From Blastopirellula sediminis (GTDB lineage Bacteria > Planctomycetota > Planctomycetia > Pirellulales > Pirellulaceae), in NCBI RefSeq assembly GCF_020966755.1, contig NZ_JAJKFT010000004.1, positions 186,001 through 250,000 of the forward strand: a DNA stretch of 64,000 nt. Direction: 5' to 3'. This document shows, piece after piece, positions 11-11,909 of the stretch; position 1 is the first letter of the stretch; every line of letters begins with the position of its first letter. Both the position numbers and the translations under genes were made by a program. The notes under the pieces were generated by a model. That model did no database searches. It worked only from the letters and a program-made list of their open reading frames with translations, and was not told the origin of the DNA.

Positions 11-1051
11 GTGGCCCTGAACAAGATTATTTTTCAATCCTATCCGCTACGTGCAGGCGTCGCGTCGCTTGCGCTAGCCGGCGCGATGTGGACTGCGCCG
101 CTCCGCGCTGAAGAGGCCAGCGGTGGATTGCTGGACAAGCTCCCCTCGTTTAACGTGCGCCAAGTGCAGTTCACGGGCGACAGCGACGAGAATCAGACGC
201 TCGACGAATACATCCGCGAGTCGGAAGAGCGGAGCAAAAAGAAATCGGGTAACGGTTTCACTGCAACGCTGAAGAGCGCCGGCAAGAGCATCCAAGATGC
301 GTTCACGATCAAGTCGTCCAACGTCCCGGCCGACGATCCGCTGAGCTTGTCGAATACGCCGGACCATCTGGACGTCAACATCTATCTGAGCACCGGTCGG
401 ATCCTCGAACAGCAAGGAAAGTTCGAAGAAGCCGGCAAACAGTATATGACGGCGCTCGATCAGTATCCGGACAACCTGTTCGCGCTGCTCAGCTACGCCC
501 GGTTGATGGACCGTCAAGGGAAGTCGACCGCCGCGCTGGAATTCTATCAGAAAGCGGCGACCGCTCATCCCGAGAGCGCGATCGCGATGAACGACCTGGG
601 GCTCTGCTACCTGAAGCTAAAGCGTTTTGACGACGCGATGGCGTCGATCTTTAAGGCGACGACCATCGAGCCGGAAAACAAACGCTATCGCAACAATATG
701 GCCAGTGCGCTGGTTGACGCCAATCGCCTGGAAGAAGCGTTCTCGCAGCTCGAGTACGCTCACGGCGCCGCGACGGCCCATTACAACCTGGGCTATCTGC
801 TTTACAAGAAAGGGGACGCCAATTTGGCTCGCCTTCACTTGAACTTGGCGCTGGAGAAGGATCCCGAATTGCACGCGGCTCGCCAGTTGCTGATGATCGT
901 CGATCGCAGCCAACCGGAAGTCGCTTATCGCCCTGGCTACGGTCAGCAGCCGAATCTGCGTCGCCTGCCGGCGGCGCCGAATCCGCCGCAACTGAACTTC
1001 AATCAGGGAGCGGTCGGCAACATGCAGATGCAGCCGCCGATTCGTCGCTAA
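11..1051 (+). CDS. Exported tetratricopeptide-repeat protein
   Basis: A 346-residue protein with a GTG start preceded by a GAGGTG-like ribosome site. Residues about 1-33 form a signal peptide: a basic start, a hydrophobic stretch (VASLALAGAMW) and a likely cleavage after LRAEE or nearby. From about residue 120 to 295 there are at least four or five TPR units, recognisable by the GKFEEAGKQYMTAL, GKSTAALEFYQKA, KRFDDAMASIFKA and GDANLARLHLNLAL helices. The last 45 residues are proline, asparagine and glutamine rich and probably disordered. TPR proteins act as protein-protein scaffolds; the export signal puts this one in the periplasm or envelope. The specific partner cannot be told from the sequence. 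The gene start lies near the window edge, so an upstream operon partner cannot be excluded. Confidence 0.8.
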   Translation: MALNKIIFQSYPLRAGVASLALAGAMWTAPLRAEEASGGLLDKLPSFNVRQVQFTGDSDENQTLDEYIRESEERSKKKSGNGFTATLKSAGKSIQDAFTIKSSNVPADDPLSLSNTPDHLDVNIYLSTGRILEQQGKFEEAGKQYMTALDQYPDNLFALLSYARLMDRQGKSTAALEFYQKAATAHPESAIAMNDLGLCYLKLKRFDDAMASIFKATTIEPENKRYRNNMASALVDANRLEEAFSQLEYAHGAATAHYNLGYLLYKKGDANLARLHLNLALEKDPELHAARQLLMIVDRSQPEVAYRPGYGQQPNLRRLPAAPNPPQLNFNQGAVGNMQMQPPIRR

Positions 1052-3393: not shown

Positions 3394-3757
3394 TGGGTGA
3401 CACTGCTGGCTTGTCCAGCAGTGTGCAGCCTCAAAGTCGCTAGATATCCATCTGTCGATTCGTTTTGAGGGGCAATCTTTTCAGAATTCGTTCCATAACG
3501 CCACACTGCTGGACAAGCCAGCAGTGCCACCCCTTCGAGTCGCATTTCCACTCTTGCCGACTGTGCCGGTCGTGCCGCGGGCTCCGATTCTTTTCACCAG
3601 CGAAACGGCGCCGCGCGGCGATCTGTCGCTGATTTCGTCTCGCTAGCAATGCCGAAGTAGAGAGAGACGGACCAACAGGATTTGTCGGGCAAGGATTCGC
3701 CCTGCGACTTCGCGACATGCGCGGCATGTCGTTTGCCATAAAGGAGTGGCGCCCGCC
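3394..3757. repeat. Intergenic region with an inverted pair of REP-like palindromes
   Basis: No gene is supported between truB and ftsK. Two palindromes of the same family lie here in opposite orientation. The first (3400-3424) has a 10-bp stem around CACTGCTGG / CCAGCAGTG with a CTTGT loop. The second (3504-3526) has the same 9-bp arms with the complementary ACAAG loop, so it is the reverse complement of the first. Both stems are perfect, and the pair could also fold on itself. This arrangement is typical of interspersed REP/BIME-like sequences. The rest of the region has no clear promoter, except a purine-rich AAGGAG at 3741-3746 that serves ftsK. Confidence 0.7.
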
Positions 3758-6637
3758 ATGTTCGAAAATCGCAGCCTTCATCGCGACCTAATCGCAATCG
3801 GTTTGGCGGCGGCGGTCTTATTTCTCATACTCTCGCTCGTCAGCTACGACGCAGCGGATCCGATCCCTGCGCCGATTTTTCCGATCAGCGAAGTTTATCA
3901 GCCTGACGTGGTGGTCTACCCGCCTACGCAGCGCGCCCACAACATCTGCGGCGGCATGGGCGCCTTGGCGGCCGATTTGCTCTTTTCGCGACTCGGCGGA
4001 CTGGGAGCCTTTTATCTGGTCATTTCGCTGGCCGCACTCGACTTCATTTTGCTGAAGCGGATGGAAGTCTCGGCGCCGGCGATTCGCATGTTCGGCTGGC
4101 TCGCCTCGCTGACCGGTTTGACCGCGCTGGCGGCGATGTATGCGCCCGCCATGGGGAACGGTCCCTTGGCCGGTTCCGGCGGCGCCCTCGGCATGTTGGC
4201 ATCGACGCTGCTGCATCAGCACTTTGCGGCGGTCGGCGGAACGCTGCTCGCCCTGACCGTCACGGCGGTCGGACTCTTCCTTTGCACCGACTATGAGATT
4301 CTCCGCATTGCGATGATCGTCGGCGTCAAGGGAATCGAGACGGCGGTTCTCGGCAAACAAATGGTCGCCAAGCGAATTGGTAAGAAGGGGGTCGCGGAAG
4401 ATGCCGAAGCTGCGGACGAGGAAGCCGAAACGACTGACCTGGAAGATGTCGAAGAAGAAATCGCCGAAGGGATGACCATTCGCATCGGTGGTCGCCAGGT
4501 AGAAGTCGCCGAAGACGAAGAGGAAGTCGAGTACGAGGAAGAGGAAGCCGAAGGGGAAGAGTGGGAAGAAGAAGAGGAGGTCGCCGCCGAAGAGGAAGAA
4601 GGCGAGTGGGAAGAGGAAATCGAAGAAGAGGAAGCGGCGGAAGACGAAGCGATCCCGGTCAAAACGCTCGCCGATAAGGCGGCGGAGAAGGCCGAGGATC
4701 CGCTCGCGGTCAAGAACCGCAATTCGAAAAAGAAGGCGAAGGAAGACGATCGCGCCGCGGTAATCAAAGAACTGAACGCCGCCGCCGACGACGAGCCGAA
4801 GCACGAGCATTACGAACTGCCGCCGATCGACCTGCTCATCGAGAACGAAGAGTTCTCGTACGAGGCGCAAGAGAAAGAAGTCCGTCAAAAGGCGAAGGTC
4901 CTCGAAAAGACGTTCGCCAACTTCGGCTTCAACGTCAAGGTGGTCGAAATCGAGACCGGTCCGGTCATCGCCCAGTACGAAGTCGAACTCGAAGCCGGTC
5001 TCCGACTTTCGAAGATCACCGGCCTGGCCGACGACCTGGCGATTGCGCTCCGCGTGCCGAGCGTCCGCATCGTTGCGCCGATCCCCGGCAAGAACACCGT
5101 CGGGATCGAAGTGCCGAACGAAGAGCGGCAGATGGTCCGCCTGCGCGAAGTGATGGAAGAAGGACTCGGCCGTTCGGGCAAGATGAAGATTCCGATCTTC
5201 CTCGGCAAGGACGTCTCTGGCAATCCGCTGGTCGTCGACCTGGCGTCGATGCCTCACTTGTTGATCGCCGGTCGTACAGGTACCGGTAAGTCGGTCTGTT
5301 TGAACGCGCTGATCACTTCGATTTTGATGACCCGTCGTCCCGACGAAGTCCGCATGCTGATGATCGACCCGAAGATGGTCGAATTGAGCTGCTACAAGAC
5401 GCTGCCGCACCTGATGCACCCGGTGGTTACCGACATGAAGAAGGCGGAAGCGATCTTGGCCTGGGCGGTCGAGAAGATGGAAGAGCGGTATCAACTGCTC
5501 GCCAAGGTTGGCGTCCGTCACTTGAGCGTCTTCAACCAGCTGAGCGCCGAAGAGATCTACGAACGTCTGGAAGTGGGAGACGAAGAAGATCGCAAATCGG
5601 TTCCGACGCACTTGCCCTACATCGTGATCGTCGCCGACGAAATGGCGGACCTCATGATGACCGCCGGGAAGGAAGTCGAACAGCACATCATTCGTCTCGC
5701 TCAGAAGAGCCGAGCGGTCGGGATCCACCTGATCCTTGCGACGCAAAAGCCGACGGTCGACGTCATCACCGGTTTGATCAAGTCGAACTTGCCGGCTCGC
5801 TTGGCGTTCCAGGTGGCCAGCCGTACGGACAGCCGCGTTGTGCTCGACGAAATGGGCGCCGACAAGCTGCTCGGCAACGGCGACATGCTCTTCCTCTGGC
5901 CAGGGACCAGCTCGCTGATGCGTGGTCAGGGTACCTACCTCTCGGACGAAGAGATCAACAGCGTCGTCGATTTCGTCAGCACCGGCGAACAGGACTTCGT
6001 CAAAGAACTGGTCCAGCTGCGCGTCGAAGATGGCGCCGTCGCCGATCCCAGCAAGATGAAGAAGCGGGACGAAATGTACGAGCAGGCGGTCGACGTGATC
6101 GTCGCCGAGCAGCGCGGCAGCGTTTCTTTGCTGCAGCGGGCGCTTGGCGTCGGTTATGGTCGTGGCGCACGCTTGATCGACTTCATGGCGGAAGATGGAA
6201 TCGTTGGTCCGTACAACGGTTCTCAGGCCCGCGAGGTATTGATCAGCGTCGCCGAATGGGAGCAAATGAAGGCCGGGGACGGCGTCGGCAAGATTGAAAT
6301 GGAAGAAGAGCCGGAGATCAACGAAGCTCCGCCTAAGAAGAAAGAAGAGCCGAAAGCGAAACGCTCGAACAAAGTCGTCCCGGTTCCTGCGATGGAAGAA
6401 GAGGAGGAGGAAGAGGAATACGACGAAGAAGAAGAGGAAGTGTTCGAAGAGGAAGAGGAGTACGAAGAAGTCGAAGAGTACGACGAAGACGACTCCGAGT
6501 ATGAAGAAGAGGAAGCGGAAGGGGACGAAGAAGAGTACGAGTACGAAGAGGAAGAATACGAGGAAGAGGAGTACGAGGAGGAAGACGAAGAGGAAGAAGA
6601 GGACGAGGACGAAGGAGATCGCCAGAAGACGGCGTAA
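3758..6637 (+). CDS. ftsK: FtsK/SpoIIIE DNA translocase with acidic linker and acidic tail
   Basis: Hexameric ATP-driven DNA pump for chromosome segregation and dimer resolution, anchored in the inner membrane. From the ATG at 3758 (AAGGAG 11 nt upstream; an in-frame GTG lies at 3746) it has 959 residues. Residues about 12-195 hold four or so membrane helices. Residues about 208-327 are a Glu-dominated linker. The motor follows: an alpha part around 365-480, Walker A GRTGTGKS near 504-512, Walker B IVIVADEMADL near 621, and LAQKSRAVGIHLILATQKPT. The gamma winged-helix domain that reads KOPS sites is seen as VSLLQRALGVGYGRGARLIDFM near 790-815. Unusually, some 80 residues after gamma are almost all Glu, Asp and Tyr. 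Planctomycetes generally lack FtsZ, so a divisome role cannot be assumed. The motor assignment is certain; the meaning of the acidic parts is not. Confidence 0.95.
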   Translation: MFENRSLHRDLIAIGLAAAVLFLILSLVSYDAADPIPAPIFPISEVYQPDVVVYPPTQRAHNICGGMGALAADLLFSRLGGLGAFYLVISLAALDFILLKRMEVSAPAIRMFGWLASLTGLTALAAMYAPAMGNGPLAGSGGALGMLASTLLHQHFAAVGGTLLALTVTAVGLFLCTDYEILRIAMIVGVKGIETAVLGKQMVAKRIGKKGVAEDAEAADEEAETTDLEDVEEEIAEGMTIRIGGRQVEVAEDEEEVEYEEEEAEGEEWEEEEEVAAEEEEGEWEEEIEEEEAAEDEAIPVKTLADKAAEKAEDPLAVKNRNSKKKAKEDDRAAVIKELNAAADDEPKHEHYELPPIDLLIENEEFSYEAQEKEVRQKAKVLEKTFANFGFNVKVVEIETGPVIAQYEVELEAGLRLSKITGLADDLAIALRVPSVRIVAPIPGKNTVGIEVPNEERQMVRLREVMEEGLGRSGKMKIPIFLGKDVSGNPLVVDLASMPHLLIAGRTGTGKSVCLNALITSILMTRRPDEVRMLMIDPKMVELSCYKTLPHLMHPVVTDMKKAEAILAWAVEKMEERYQLLAKVGVRHLSVFNQLSAEEIYERLEVGDEEDRKSVPTHLPYIVIVADEMADLMMTAGKEVEQHIIRLAQKSRAVGIHLILATQKPTVDVITGLIKSNLPARLAFQVASRTDSRVVLDEMGADKLLGNGDMLFLWPGTSSLMRGQGTYLSDEEINSVVDFVSTGEQDFVKELVQLRVEDGAVADPSKMKKRDEMYEQAVDVIVAEQRGSVSLLQRALGVGYGRGARLIDFMAEDGIVGPYNGSQAREVLISVAEWEQMKAGDGVGKIEMEEEPEINEAPPKKKEEPKAKRSNKVVPVPAMEEEEEEEEYDEEEEEVFEEEEEYEEVEEYDEDDSEYEEEEAEGDEEEYEYEEEEYEEEEYEEEDEEEEEDEDEGDRQKTA

Positions 6638-6779
6638 TTCGGGCGGCGATCCCCGGTTTTCCCCGTAGAACTGGCAAAATGGGAAGTTTTTGCCAGATCG
6701 TCGATCGCAGCCGCCGCCGGGTCGATCTAAAGGGAATGTGGATCAGACCGCGAACCGCCCAGCTGGTGGGGGCGTCTGG

Positions 6780-6808
6780 TTGACATAGAATAATGGTAAT
6801 TTTAGACT
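6780..6808 (+). promoter_or_regulatory. Sigma70-type promoter of the cimA leader
   Basis: TTGACA at 6780-6785, a 17-bp spacer, and TAGACT at 6803-6808 (4 of 6 consensus positions). Transcription would start near 6815 and give a leader of about 265 nt before the citramalate synthase gene, containing the leader ORF and the attenuator. Confidence 0.55.
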
Positions 6809-6867
6809 TACGTCTTCCACGCACACTTGTGTGAGACAGCCGTCCGCCTCAGTAGGGTGCAGATAAA

Positions 6868-6957
6868 ATGCCCAACACGCTGATCAACGTAGGCTCGCAG
6901 ATTGGACCGATTACGATCGTACGGATCGTAGTACCGGGCCGTTGTGGGCTTGGCTAG
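6868..6957 (+). CDS. Branched-chain-amino-acid leader peptide
   Basis: A 29-codon ORF in the leader of the citramalate synthase gene (ATG 6868, TAG 6955). The peptide starts MPNTLINVGSQIG and then has the core PITIVRIVVPG followed by RCGLG. Five isoleucines, four valines and two leucines make 11 of 29 residues, with six Ile/Val codons among codons 15-22. A weak AGGGTG ribosome site lies about 10 nt upstream. The peptide itself probably has no function; its translation rate would report charged tRNA-Ile and tRNA-Val levels. It is followed by mutually exclusive hairpins (see the attenuator entry) and sits ahead of an isoleucine-pathway gene, exactly where such a leader is expected. The Ile/Val content, the position and the structures agree, but translation is inferred. 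Confidence 0.75.
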   Translation: MPNTLINVGSQIGPITIVRIVVPGRCGLG

Positions 6958-7024
6958 AGGAAACGGCAAATCACCGAAATCCAACAGCCCTGAAGCCCGT
7001 TGCGGCCTCAGGGCTTTTTTTATT
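6912..7024 (+). promoter_or_regulatory. Transcription attenuator upstream of citramalate synthase
   Basis: Three competing structures are visible. A pause-type hairpin pairs 6912-6918 with 6924-6930 inside the Ile/Val codons. An antiterminator pairs 6936-6944 with 6982-6990 (8 of 9 pairs). An intrinsic terminator pairs 6986-6993 (AGCCCTGA) with 7008-7015 (TCAGGGCT) and ends in TTTTTTTATTTT. The antiterminator and terminator share 6986-6990, so only one can form. A ribosome stalled at codons 15-22 leaves 6936-6944 free and favours read-through; one that reaches the stop at 6955 covers that strand and favours termination. This is the standard logic of ilv/leu-type attenuation; the folding is read by eye. 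Confidence 0.7.
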
Positions 7025-7080
7025 TTCGTCGCTAACCGCGGCAACCCAAACGGCACGCCCCGCCAGTAGGGACTTTCTTC

Positions 7081-8706
7081 ATGAGAAAAATCGAGATCTA
7101 CGACACGACGCTTCGTGACGGCGCCCAAGGAGAAGGCGTAAGCTTTTCTTTGCAGGACAAGCTGTCGATTACCGAGCGTCTGGATGAGATCGGCGTCGAT
7201 TTCGTGGAGGGAGGCTATCCCCTGTCGAATGAAAAAGACGCCGAGTACTTCAAGCGGGTCCAAGAGCTCGACCTGAAACATACGAAGGTCTGCGCCTTCG
7301 GCATGACCCGCCGTAAGGGAATGGCCGCCGCTGACGATCCCGGCATGCAAGCGCTGGTCGATTCGGGCGCGCCGGTCGTCACCATCGTCGGTAAGACGCA
7401 TGACTTTCATGTGACCGACGTCCTCCGCGTGACGCTGGAAGAAAACCTGGCGATGATCGCCGACTCGATCAGCTACATCGTCAGCCAAGGGCGCGAAGTC
7501 ATTTACGACGCCGAGCACTTCTTCGACGGCTGGAAAGCGAACCCGGAATACGCGGCCGAAACGATTCGGACCGCCGCCAAAGCGGGCGCACGCTTGGTGG
7601 TGATGTGCGATACCAACGGCGGCAGCCTGCCGGAAGAAATCGCCGACTACGCCAAGAAGGCGATCGAAGCGCTGGCCGAATTCAACGTGCCGGTCGGCAT
7701 CCATACGCATAACGATGGCGATCTAGCGGTCGCCAACAGTCTGGCCGCAGTCGACGCCGGCGCTGTCCAGGTGCAAGGAACGATCAACGGCTTCGGCGAA
7801 CGTTGCGGCAACGCCGACCTGATCTCGGTGATCGCAAACCTTGGCTTGAAAAAGAAAGGTTACGACGTCATCGGGGGCGCGGGCTTCGATCATTTGACCG
7901 AACTTTCGCGTTACGTCTACGACACCGCCAACGTCAATCGTCGCAACAACCAACCGTTCGTCGGGCAAAGCGCCTTCGCTCACAAAGGGGGAATGCACGT
8001 CCACGCGATCAACCGGGCCGCGTCGAGCTACGAACATATCGACCCGCAAACGGTCGGCAACGAACGTCGCGTCTTGGTGAGCGAATTGTCGGGTCGCTCG
8101 AACATCGTCGCCCTGACGACCAAGCACAACCTGCAAGACGATCGCGTCTTGATGGATAAGATCCTGGCCGAGGTCGTCAGCAAGGAAAACCAAGGTTACC
8201 AGTACGAAGCGGCCGAAGCGTCGTTCGACTTGCTGGTCAAACGGGTCGCCGGCGTCTTTCGGCCCCACTTCGAGATTTTGAAGTACCACGTCGAAGTCGA
8301 AGACCTGGTCGAACACAAAGTGGTCGACCTGGTGACCGAAGCGACGGTGAAAGTTTCGGTCGACGGCGAAGTACGCTACGAAGTCGGCGAAGGAGACGGT
8401 CCGGTGCAGGCGCTCGACGTGGCGCTCCGCAAGGCGCTGAACGGCTGCTTCCCGACGCTCGAAACGATGCACCTGGTCGACTACAAGGTACGCGTCGTCA
8501 ATCAAGAGGCGGGGACCGCCGCCAGAATCCGCGTGATGATCGAAAGCGCGGACGAAGATGACGTCTGGGGAACCATCGGCGTCAGTGAGAATATCATCCA
8601 GGCCAGCTGGAACGCGCTGGTCGATTCCATCGAATACAAACTTCACAAAGATGAGCAACGGGGCAAGTCGCCGGCGCGGGCCAGCGCTGAATCGACGGCG
8701 AAGTAA
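7081..8706 (+). CDS. cimA: Citramalate synthase (LeuA-related)
   Basis: Condenses pyruvate with acetyl-CoA to (R)-citramalate, opening the threonine-independent path to 2-oxobutyrate and isoleucine. The 541-residue protein begins with the DRE-TIM metallolyase signature DTTLRDGAQGEGVSFS at residues 8-23; the GEGVSFS form is typical of the CimA subgroup, whereas 2-isopropylmalate synthases usually read PGA in this place. The metal-binding HTHNDGDLAVANS lies near residue 208 and GTINGFGERCGNADL near 232. Residues about 395-515 form the LeuA-type regulatory domain where isoleucine would bind. The length matches this CimA subgroup. It is preceded by an Ile/Val leader and attenuator. A 2-isopropylmalate synthase role is the main alternative, less likely given the N-terminal motif. 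Confidence 0.88.
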   Translation: MRKIEIYDTTLRDGAQGEGVSFSLQDKLSITERLDEIGVDFVEGGYPLSNEKDAEYFKRVQELDLKHTKVCAFGMTRRKGMAAADDPGMQALVDSGAPVVTIVGKTHDFHVTDVLRVTLEENLAMIADSISYIVSQGREVIYDAEHFFDGWKANPEYAAETIRTAAKAGARLVVMCDTNGGSLPEEIADYAKKAIEALAEFNVPVGIHTHNDGDLAVANSLAAVDAGAVQVQGTINGFGERCGNADLISVIANLGLKKKGYDVIGGAGFDHLTELSRYVYDTANVNRRNNQPFVGQSAFAHKGGMHVHAINRAASSYEHIDPQTVGNERRVLVSELSGRSNIVALTTKHNLQDDRVLMDKILAEVVSKENQGYQYEAAEASFDLLVKRVAGVFRPHFEILKYHVEVEDLVEHKVVDLVTEATVKVSVDGEVRYEVGEGDGPVQALDVALRKALNGCFPTLETMHLVDYKVRVVNQEAGTAARIRVMIESADEDDVWGTIGVSENIIQASWNALVDSIEYKLHKDEQRGKSPARASAESTAK

Positions 8707-8750: not shown

Positions 8751-11700
8751 GTGGAAGCTGTGACTTTCAATCCGAAAGATCTCCCGAATCGATTTGATTT
8801 CGTGGCCGCCCAGCAGCGCATCTACCCGATGTGGGAAGAGCGGGGCTACTTCCACGCCGAGCCGAATCCGAACAAAGATCCCTACACGATCGTGATTCCG
8901 CCGCCGAACGTGACCGGCGCTCTGCACCTGGGACACGCCCTCAACAACACGCTGCAAGACGTGCTGATCCGCTACAAGCGGATGAAAGGGTTTGAAGCCC
9001 TCTGGATCCCCGGTACCGATCACGCGGGCATCGCGACGCAAGCGGTGGTGGAACGTCGCATTCTGGAAGAAGAAGGCCTATCGCGCCACGACCTGGGCCG
9101 CGAGAAGATGGTCGAGCGGATCTGGAAGTGGAAAGATCAGTACGAAGCTCGCATTCTCGGCCAGCTGAAGCGGATGGGTAGCAGTTGCGATTGGGAGCGG
9201 ACGCGGTTCACGCTCGACCCGGTCTGCGCTCGCGCCGTGCGGAGCACCTTCTACGATCTGTTCGCGAAGAACCTGATCTACAAAGGGAAGCGTCTGGTCA
9301 ACTGGGACACGTTCCTGCAAACCGCTGTGAGCGACGATGAAGTGTTCCACGAAACGACCCAAGGGCACTTCTGGCACTTCAGCTATCCGGTGATCGACCC
9401 GCAACCAGGCGAACCGCCAGTGGTGACGATCGCGACGACCCGGCCCGAGACGATGCTCGGCGATACGGCGGTGGCGGTCCACCCCGATCCAGAGCAGGCG
9501 CTCAACGACTTGGAAGCGGAGCTGAAAGAAAAGCTGAAGACGGCGCCGGGAAAAGAGAAGCCGGAGATTCAGGCGGAACTCGACCGCATCGCCGAACGCC
9601 GCAAGACGATGCTGCCGCAGCTGATCATCTTGCGCGACATGGCGCTGGCCGGCCGCAAGCTGATGCTACCGCTGATCGAACGCGAAATTCCGCTGATCGC
9701 CGACCAGTGGGCGAAGCCGGAGCTTGGGTCCGGCTGCGTGAAGATCACGCCGGCGCATGATCCGAACGACTATGAAGTCGGCATTCGGAACGAGCTGCCG
9801 ATGATCAACATCCTGAACCCGGACGGCACGCTCAACGAGAACGCCGCTCAGTACAAAGGGCTGAAGATCTACGACGCCCGCGAAAAAGTGGTGGCCGATC
9901 TCGACGCCATCGGTTTGCTCGACAAGGTGGAAGATCGCGAGATCGACCTGGCGCACTCCGACCGGAGCAAGACGCCGATCGAGCCGTACCTGGCCGACCA
10001 GTGGTTCATCCGCATGGACGAACTGGCGCAAAGCGCGATGGACGCGGTGACCGATGGTCGCGTGAAGATCTTCCCGACCCGTTACGCCAAGGGCTACGTC
10101 GATTGGCTCAGCGAAAAGCGCGATTGGCCGGTTAGCCGTCAGCTCTGGTGGGGACATCAGATTCCGATCTGGTCGCAAACTTGCCAGTTGAAAGAAGATC
10201 ACGACGAGCTGATCGCGAAGCTCGACGCCGATCCCGATATCAAAGCGGAACGCGCCGCCTATCAGGTGGAACGAGATCCCGAACGTCAGGCCGCCGAAAA
10301 GACCGGCACCATCCAAGGCGCCGCGCGGGTGGGGATGCCCTACTCGATGATCCACGTCTGCATCAACGAAGATGACGACGCCCTGGCCACGAAGTACGAA
10401 AAGCTCGGCTTCGTGCGGGAAAATGACGTGCTCGATACCTGGTTCAGCTCGGCGCTCTGGCCCCACTCGACCTTGGGTTGGCCCGAGAAGACGCCGGAGC
10501 TGGAGTACTTCTATCCGACCAGCACGCTGATCACCAGCCGCGACATCATCACGTTGTGGGTGGCCCGCATGGTGCTGGCCGGCCTGAACAACATGGGCGA
10601 GATTCCGTTCCGCGAAGTCTTCATTCACCCGACCATTCTGGATGGCCTGGGAGAACGAATGTCGAAGTCGAAGGGGAACGGGGTCGATCCGTTGGATGTG
10701 ATCGAGAAGTTCGGCGCCGACTCGCTTCGCTTTGGTTTGGCCTATCTGACCACCGAAACGCAAGACGTGCGGATGCCGGTGCAGTTCGAGTGCCCCCACT
10801 GCGGCGCGCTAATCGATCAGACGAAGAAGAACCGGATCCAGCCGAAGATCGAATGCAAGAAGTGCTCGAAGGAATTCTCGACGCAGTGGGCGTTTAGCGA
10901 CGCCGACCTGGCGCTGCCGCGCGGCGCTGTGGTGAGCGAACGCTTCGAGATTGGGCGTAACTTCTGCAACAAGCTGTGGAACGCCGCTCGGTTCACGATG
11001 ATCAACCTGGAAGGGTTCGAACCGGCCCCGATCGACGACGCCGATTTGCTGCTCGAAGATCGTTGGATTCTCAGTCGGTTGGCTTCGGCCGAAGCGGAAA
11101 TGACTCGCTGCCTGGAATCGTATCGCTACGCCGATGCGGCCCGTGCGCTGTACGACTTCGCGTGGGACAACTTCTGCAGCTTCTATCTCGAAATGACGAA
11201 GGAACGATTCACCGATCCGGCGCAGCGTCCGCTGGCTCAACGCGTGATCATCTTCGTGCTCGATTCGCTATTGCGAATGCTCCATCCGCTGGTGCCGTTC
11301 ATCACGGAAGAAATTTGGCAGTCGCTCGGCAAGCTCGCGCCGAAACGCGGTTTCGCCGAAGTGACCGAAGCGACCGAGAGCATCATGATCGCCGAGTGGC
11401 CGCCGATTGATCCGGCCTGGCAAGACGAAAAGATCGAAGCGCAGTTCGCCAAGTTCCAAGAAACGCTGGCCAGTCTGCGCGAAATCCGCAGCCGCCAGAA
11501 CATTGCGCCGCGCGAGATGATCGAGTTCACGATTCGCTGCGACGCCAAGACGGTCGAACTGCTCGAGTCGATGGAAGCTTACTTCGGTTCGATGGCCAAC
11601 GCGAAGAGCGTCGGTTGGGGCGCCGAAGTGACGATTCCGGAAACCAACGCTCGCATCGACTTGCCGGGGATGGAAGTCTATGTCGACCTGAAGGACTTCA

Positions 11701-11909
11701 TCGACGTCGGCGCCGAAATCGAACGAAACGAAAAGCAGCGCGAGCGTTTGCTGGGGATGATCACCGGCAAAGAGAAGAAGCTTTCGAACGCCAGTTTCGT
11801 CGAACGCGCACCGGCCGACGTGGTCGCCAAAGAACGGGAAAGCTTGGAAAACGCCCAGCGCGAGCTGGAAACGGTCGAAGCCGCCCTGGCGAAACTGCTG
11901 AAAAAGTAA
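8751..11909 (+). CDS. valS: Valyl-tRNA synthetase
   Basis: Charges tRNA-Val. The 1052-residue class I enzyme shows PPPNVTGALHLGHALNN (HIGH motif as HLGH, near residue 57), WIPGTDHAGIATQ, the ATTRPETMLGDTAVAVHP segment of the CP1 editing domain, LDTWFSSALWPHST and the signature loop MSKSKGN near residue 636. A C-terminal coiled-coil arm ends the protein (residues about 980-1052). Two additions stand out: a charged helical insert around residues 247-290 in the editing domain, and a four-cysteine zinc-ribbon-like insert near 680-710 (CPHC and CKKC) after the signature loop. A GTG at 8751 is used, 44 bp after cimA; another GTG at 8760 is possible. It may be co-transcribed with cimA. Confidence 0.95.
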   Translation: MEAVTFNPKDLPNRFDFVAAQQRIYPMWEERGYFHAEPNPNKDPYTIVIPPPNVTGALHLGHALNNTLQDVLIRYKRMKGFEALWIPGTDHAGIATQAVVERRILEEEGLSRHDLGREKMVERIWKWKDQYEARILGQLKRMGSSCDWERTRFTLDPVCARAVRSTFYDLFAKNLIYKGKRLVNWDTFLQTAVSDDEVFHETTQGHFWHFSYPVIDPQPGEPPVVTIATTRPETMLGDTAVAVHPDPEQALNDLEAELKEKLKTAPGKEKPEIQAELDRIAERRKTMLPQLIILRDMALAGRKLMLPLIEREIPLIADQWAKPELGSGCVKITPAHDPNDYEVGIRNELPMINILNPDGTLNENAAQYKGLKIYDAREKVVADLDAIGLLDKVEDREIDLAHSDRSKTPIEPYLADQWFIRMDELAQSAMDAVTDGRVKIFPTRYAKGYVDWLSEKRDWPVSRQLWWGHQIPIWSQTCQLKEDHDELIAKLDADPDIKAERAAYQVERDPERQAAEKTGTIQGAARVGMPYSMIHVCINEDDDALATKYEKLGFVRENDVLDTWFSSALWPHSTLGWPEKTPELEYFYPTSTLITSRDIITLWVARMVLAGLNNMGEIPFREVFIHPTILDGLGERMSKSKGNGVDPLDVIEKFGADSLRFGLAYLTTETQDVRMPVQFECPHCGALIDQTKKNRIQPKIECKKCSKEFSTQWAFSDADLALPRGAVVSERFEIGRNFCNKLWNAARFTMINLEGFEPAPIDDADLLLEDRWILSRLASAEAEMTRCLESYRYADAARALYDFAWDNFCSFYLEMTKERFTDPAQRPLAQRVIIFVLDSLLRMLHPLVPFITEEIWQSLGKLAPKRGFAEVTEATESIMIAEWPPIDPAWQDEKIEAQFAKFQETLASLREIRSRQNIAPREMIEFTIRCDAKTVELLESMEAYFGSMANAKSVGWGAEVTIPETNARIDLPGMEVYVDLKDFIDVGAEIERNEKQRERLLGMITGKEKKLSNASFVERAPADVVAKERESLENAQRELETVEAALAKLLKK

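Follow-up and report, generated by a model that had tools for sequence, protein, structure and literature searches.

A putative isoleucine/valine leader-peptide attenuator in front of the citramalate synthase gene of Blastopirellula sediminis and other planctomycetes

The leader that precedes cimA, the citramalate synthase gene with which isoleucine synthesis begins in Blastopirellula sediminis, is very probably a transcription attenuator of the trp/ilv type, mediated by the ribosome, as judged from sequence comparison. Its parts can be read on the DNA, they recur in front of cimA in related genomes, two alternative hairpins covary, and in two genes, cimA and leuA, the leader codons match the product of the pathway.

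The cimA locus and its leader

The locus lies in a stretch of 64,000 nucleotides (positions 186,001 to 250,000 of contig NZ_JAJKFT010000004.1), hereafter the window, whose numbering is used throughout. Its features are the following:

3746-6637, plus strand: ftsK-like gene, flanking the leader region (6780-7021) on the upstream side
6780-6808, plus strand: sigma70-type promoter TTGACA-17-TAGACT, 10 of 12 consensus matches
6868-6957, plus strand: leader reading frame of 29 codons with stop TAG, translation MPNTLINVGSQIGPITIVRIVVPGRCGLG, 5 Ile and 4 Val codons
6883, 6901, 6910, 6916 and 6925, plus strand: regulatory Ile codons, from the leader translation
6889, 6919, 6928 and 6931, plus strand: regulatory Val codons, all GTA, from the leader translation
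6891-6954, plus strand: possible pause or protector hairpin across the Ile/Val codons, weak (z -1.77)
6946-6955, plus strand: 5' strand of the antiterminator, its last base being the first base of the leader stop codon; pairs with 6986-6998 (-13.5 kcal/mol) and covaries in relatives
6986-7021, plus strand: intrinsic terminator (stem 6986-7015, T run 7015-7021), z -4.27, covarying, its 5' arm common to the antiterminator
7081-8706, plus strand: cimA, citramalate synthase (TIGR00977, 674.9 bits for a cut-off of 450)
8751-11909, plus strand: valS, valyl-tRNA synthetase, starting 44 nt past the end of cimA

A preliminary description of this DNA, made from the letters alone, had already named the promoter, the 29-codon frame with its nine Ile/Val codons, the terminator followed by a T tract and the citramalate synthase gene downstream; all four hold. 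Long Glu-rich stretches are found in the ftsK-like protein, both within the N-terminal half and at the C-terminus.

cimA and valS are probably co-transcribed. Where a leader is detected and the downstream sequence reaches 800 nt or more, valS is the next gene on the same strand after cimA in 80 of 100 loci, and it holds this place in 36 of the 73 loci where no leader was detected. The leader suggests that cimA and valS are under joint regulation. As for threonine deaminase, the best match in the genome of B. sediminis reaches 317 bits, under the cut-off of 378.75, and only one of 13 genomes has a match above that value.

The device would work as follows. RNA polymerase would start at about 6815, the presumed transcript start, and a ribosome would begin to translate the leader at 6868. 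With an ample supply of charged Ile- and Val-tRNA, this ribosome would reach the stop codon (6955-6957) and cover the antiterminator strand; the terminator at 6986-7021 would then form, and transcription would end before cimA. If these charged tRNAs run short, it would stall on the Ile/Val codons of 6883-6933 and leave the strand 6946-6955 free; the latter would pair with 6986-6998 before the 3' arm of the terminator is made, with readthrough into cimA and valS. Such a switching of hairpins in cells is what we infer from the arrangement.

Recurrence before cimA

The layout was searched with a detector requiring a terminator and a reading frame that ends at most 100 nt before it and whose final 20 codons include 5 or more for Ile or Val. 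The family sample covers 110 of the 147 genomes with a cimA match (30 loci and 80 stretches), the matches left aside being many distant ones together with the usable G017, G052, G070, G123 and G125. To this sample were added the best 80 named loci of a genome scan, giving 190 loci, 177 of them unique; with the exclusion of L021, which has 6 nt upstream, 176 upstreams were analysed. The leader layout was detected in 108 of them, against 1/176 dinucleotide shuffles and 2/176 reverse complements, and is absent or undetected in 68. With the same threshold applied to other residues, the same upstreams gave 10 frames for Leu, 35 for Ser+Thr, 47 for Ala+Gly and 21 for Arg.

Besides, 92 of 107 leaders have a site of the form TTGAC-N-16..18-NANNNT in the 130 nt that precede them, whereas 2.2 are expected from shuffles. 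This promoter-like site, standing between the genes, argues against the reading of the hairpin as the terminator of the upstream ftsK and of the frame as a chance product, and so do the absence of Ile/Val frames from shuffles (1/176) and the covariation of the stop-codon strand with the terminator, described below. It is true that ftsK precedes the leader on the same strand in the window, and that 16 of the 100 leader-bearing loci with 1200 nt or more of upstream sequence have an ftsK match there—a count probably too low, as 1500 nt may not reach the conserved part of the gene. We nevertheless hold an ftsK terminator to be very improbable.

The terminator and the pairing that competes with it

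The terminator of B. sediminis pairs 6986-6993 with 7008-7015, with three inner pairs more, and its T run occupies 7015-7021. Its stability (-20.0 kcal/mol, z -4.27) was equalled by none of 200 shuffles. A simple hairpin scan lists the stem for the minus strand and not for the plus strand; as we read the rule of that scan, an A-C mismatch carries the plus-strand loop beyond its limit.

Two elements of the preliminary description need to be amended. The pause hairpin that it placed within the Ile/Val codons exists, but stands weakly above chance (z -1.77, 10 of 200 shuffles being as good). The antiterminator that it drew, 6936-6944 with 6982-6990, is present (8 of 9 positions complementary, -10.6 kcal/mol) but is not the conserved pairing: of the four members of the genus that were compared, L004 and L005 have an extra mismatch in it. 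It was rejected in favour of 6946-6955 with 6986-6998, which fits the relatives better; with this pairing, the idea that antiterminator and terminator share a strand is retained.

In the 91 leaders, among the 108, whose gap between stop and terminator does not exceed 60 nt, the segment at the leader stop forms with the 5' arm of the terminator a duplex of -17.6 kcal/mol on average, against about -9 kcal/mol for segments taken 42-120 nt further upstream. When terminator arms are swapped between leaders the value is -14.8 kcal/mol (own arms -17.6); the own arm has a median rank of 0.23 and is among the best 5% in 17/91 leaders, so that its advantage is moderate.

Covariation was analysed on an alignment (A1) of 24 relatives of a single architecture, hand-picked from 47 candidate rows, which themselves have only TAG or TAA stops and gaps of 26-31. 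In these 24 rows both sides of the antiterminator change together in 5 of 10 pairs (13 cells), a result reached by 0/500 shuffles, while versions of the pairing slid along the alignment give at most 6 double-change cells. The terminator likewise displays changes on both sides in 4 of 11 pairs (11 cells; 0/500 shuffles). On the same rows weaker measures are less clear-cut: further pair types in the antiterminator amount to 12 against 9.9 in shuffles, 39/500 being as high, and the number of terminator pairs with a double change is matched by 29/500 shuffles. At a fixed register, over 98 leaders of mixed architecture, no excess of pairing appears: 53.5% of the variable cells are paired, against 53.2% after permutation (221/500 as high). 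We ascribe this null result to the mixture of architectures, i.e. a TAG-GGG type, a TGA type, and leaders whose strand lies downstream of the stop.

The geometry of ribosome-mediated attenuation, previously read on this locus only, is thus supported in outline by the recurrence of the layout (108/176) and by the covarying hairpins: across related cimA genes the Ile/Val frame, the terminator and the competing pairing all recur, and both alternative hairpins covary on the 24 aligned relatives.

The position of the ribosome in a folding model

We modelled the folding of the RNA left free by the ribosome, up to the terminator loop, and considered the terminator arm as sequestered when its score exceeded 0.5. 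In this model a ribosome at codon -8 leaves the arm sequestered in 87/91 leaders, and one at the stop in 9/91; for footprints of 9, 12 or 15 nt the figures are 86-87/91 and 0-21/91 respectively. With a shuffled linker, the arm is still sequestered in 51/91 leaders at codon -8, which indicates that part of its pairing comes from composition. With no ribosome the modelled arm is sequestered in 71/91, so that a general protector hairpin is not seen.

At full-length equilibrium the terminator is favoured even with a stalled ribosome, its mean probability being 0.82-0.87 for codons -16 to -6 and 0.96 for a ribosome at the stop; therefore the antiterminator must win by forming first. For the leader of B. 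sediminis itself, the modelled probability of the terminator rises from 0.01 to 0.60 and then 0.89 as the ribosome moves from codon -10 to -9 and -8, and sequestration falls between codons -7 and -6, just past the last Val codon (-8).

Amino-acid specificity of the leaders

A leader rich in Leu also precedes leuA in the same genome, 41 nt upstream of a terminator:

G000:C10:2930000-2931300, minus strand: leuA leader locus (L311), Leu-rich reading frame MPCISLLPLLLLTGLRP followed by a stop, and terminator

Among 21 leuA upstreams—that of the same genome and 20 chosen among the matches listed—a leader with at least 5 Leu was found in 15, six of which form two trios of close relatives (L311, L313, L314; L322-L324), against 1/105 shuffles; a leader with 5 Ile+Val was found in none of the 21. 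Conversely, Ile/Val leaders outnumber Leu leaders before cimA by 108 to 10 in the 176 upstreams. With Ile/Val before cimA and Leu before leuA, the identity of the leader codons follows the product of the pathway, as translation-based sensing requires. The gene ilvB was considered as a further target and set aside: none of 13 planctomycete loci has a leader with 5 Ile+Val.

Compared with the cimA genes, the 108 cimA leaders have a 4.3x share of Ile, 1.5x of Val and 0.3x of Leu; the enrichment in Ile and Val is partly inherent in the way the frames were selected, but the Leu depletion and the choice of codons are not. The Ile codon ATT makes up 71% of Ile codons in leaders and 26% in cimA genes. 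GTA, which represents 4.5% of the Val codons in 75 related cimA genes, is used four times out of four in the leader of B. sediminis. The leuA leaders have 95 Leu codons, of which 43% are CTA, while the share of CTA in cimA genes is 3%.

This preference for codons rare in the genes could also be expected if the leader were an attenuator responding to something other than the charging of Ile- and Val-tRNA, such as the speed of translation over rare codons or an effect of the nascent peptide. The stretch AAQGVR, common to the peptides of several Gemmatales-like leaders, goes in this direction, as does the ilvB leader of Streptomyces described in PMC1262725, whose candidate codons proved unimportant. 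Slow codons, however, would not require the amino acid to change with the pathway, as it does from Ile/Val before cimA to Leu before leuA, and we consider such another signal unlikely. Less likely still, the main action of the leader RNA or its peptide would be in trans, in the manner of a small RNA or a small protein: a trans role has been described for a trp leader peptide (PMC7298713), but the fixed position before cimA and leuA across families and the covarying antiterminator point to an action in cis. An attenuator sensing charged Ile- and Val-tRNA is thus the reading that we keep.

Distribution among planctomycetes

In a search of the phylum, the best-matching loci bear a leader in 23/24 cases, two of them being repeats from the own family of B. 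sediminis; in a search of the class, whose best-matching loci are mostly from its own order, the figure is 12/17. Thirty genomes were then chosen in other families of the class: the leader is found in 12/16 genomes of f89, 0/9 of f5, 1/2 of f90 and 1/3 of f92, the single f92 leader (L234) being doubtful. The family f89 groups with the Gemmataceae locus L106: four f89 proteins share 88.7-95.1% identity with the CimA of this locus. As no cimA leader was found in the nine f5 genomes (L237, L240, L242, L245, L246, L248, L249, L254, L258), it was either lost in f5 or never present. Outside the class but in the same phylum, 30 genomes were chosen, and a cimA leader rich in Ile stands in 5 of them (L269, L275, L277, L278, L281). 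Together with the counts by family, this indicates a patchy distribution across the phylum.

The Gemmatales-like cimA leaders with the common stretch AAQGVR are those of L239, L241, L243, L247, L255, L262, L082, L233 and L235, with the variant EAQGVR in L082. The stretch is encoded by GCGCAGGGAGTGCGC, in which a small hairpin could form.

Transcription-translation coupling

Classical attenuation needs the leader to be translated while the polymerase is some tens of bases ahead. In planctomycetes such as Gemmata obscuriglobus, the papers are at odds on this point: a separation of transcription from translation has been proposed for G. obscuriglobus, with Gottshall 2014 as the cited source (PMC5394234, PMC6212462), and was called an outdated view elsewhere (PMC6554331). 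A sorting of phyla into coupled and runaway does not name Planctomycetota among the runaway ones (PMC13323073).

From the distribution above, attenuation of branched-chain genes is probably old and widespread in Planctomycetia, acting through Ile/Val on cimA-valS and through Leu on leuA, Gemmataceae included, and ribosomes would follow the polymerase closely there, at least during transcription of these genes. This implication for coupling is the main interest of the cimA leader. Should the attenuator work as we read it, these genes would be translated while they are being transcribed throughout the Planctomycetia that bear it, Gemmataceae among them. Such coupling is disputed, and Gemmataceae is the family where a physical separation was proposed. 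A device depending on coupling, present in 12/16 chosen genomes of the Gemmataceae-grouping f89, would open the question to ordinary genetics. It would also offer switches responsive to Ile/Val and to Leu for organisms with few genetic tools.

Comparison with known systems

The proteobacterial leaders of ilvGMEDA and ilvBN consist of a short reading frame with runs of branched-chain codons, and of a terminator and an antiterminator that have an arm in common. The cimA leader shares this short frame of branched-chain codons and this arm common to both hairpins. It differs by the phylum, by its target, which is cimA, apparently with valS, instead of an ilv operon, by the depletion of Leu (0.3x), and by an antiterminator strand that here overlaps the leader stop codon.

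A T-box leader, as found before branched-chain genes, would respond to the same signal and likewise act by antitermination. The two differ in that the cimA layout depends on a translated frame, and the T-box model has no match to it, whether in positions 6600-7300 of the window up to an E-value of 10 or in 18 whole loci at the gathering score. The leader families of Rfam 15 likewise gave no match in the window, where two chance-level matches to other families appeared, nor in the 18 loci, where the sole match was the sRNA Acido-Lenti-1 in L102 (3114-3159, minus strand, 52.4 bits for a gathering score of 37), just past cimA.

The mechanism of attenuation is already known; its planctomycete case is new as far as we found. 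The preliminary description knew of no such leader for a planctomycete cimA and a search of the open-access literature yielded no article about a cimA leader, and none about attenuation by amino acids in planctomycetes. One study counts short leader genes by their distance to the next gene, Planctomycetes included, and its text does not contain the words citramalate, isoleucine or valine (PMC4833913). According to PMC2965389, leader-peptide systems were unknown to its authors in 2010 outside Proteobacteria and Actinobacteria, and one in bacilli was then added.

Among Actinobacteria, the ilvB leaders of Corynebacterium, Mycobacterium and Streptomyces, as described in PMC1262725, resemble the cimA leader by their short frames of Ile, Val and Leu codons placed before a terminator. 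They differ in that their frame and terminator overlap and that they serve ilvB; the 13 planctomycete ilvB loci showed no leader of this kind. In Streptomyces coelicolor, codon changes in a similar-looking ilvB leader remained without effect (same source), which may be taken as a caution for the cimA case. Finally, the attenuators of Streptomyces leuS, also from PMC1262725, put the gene of an aminoacyl-tRNA synthetase under the control of a leader peptide; the same would hold for the cimA leader, except that the synthetase gene, valS, comes second, behind cimA.
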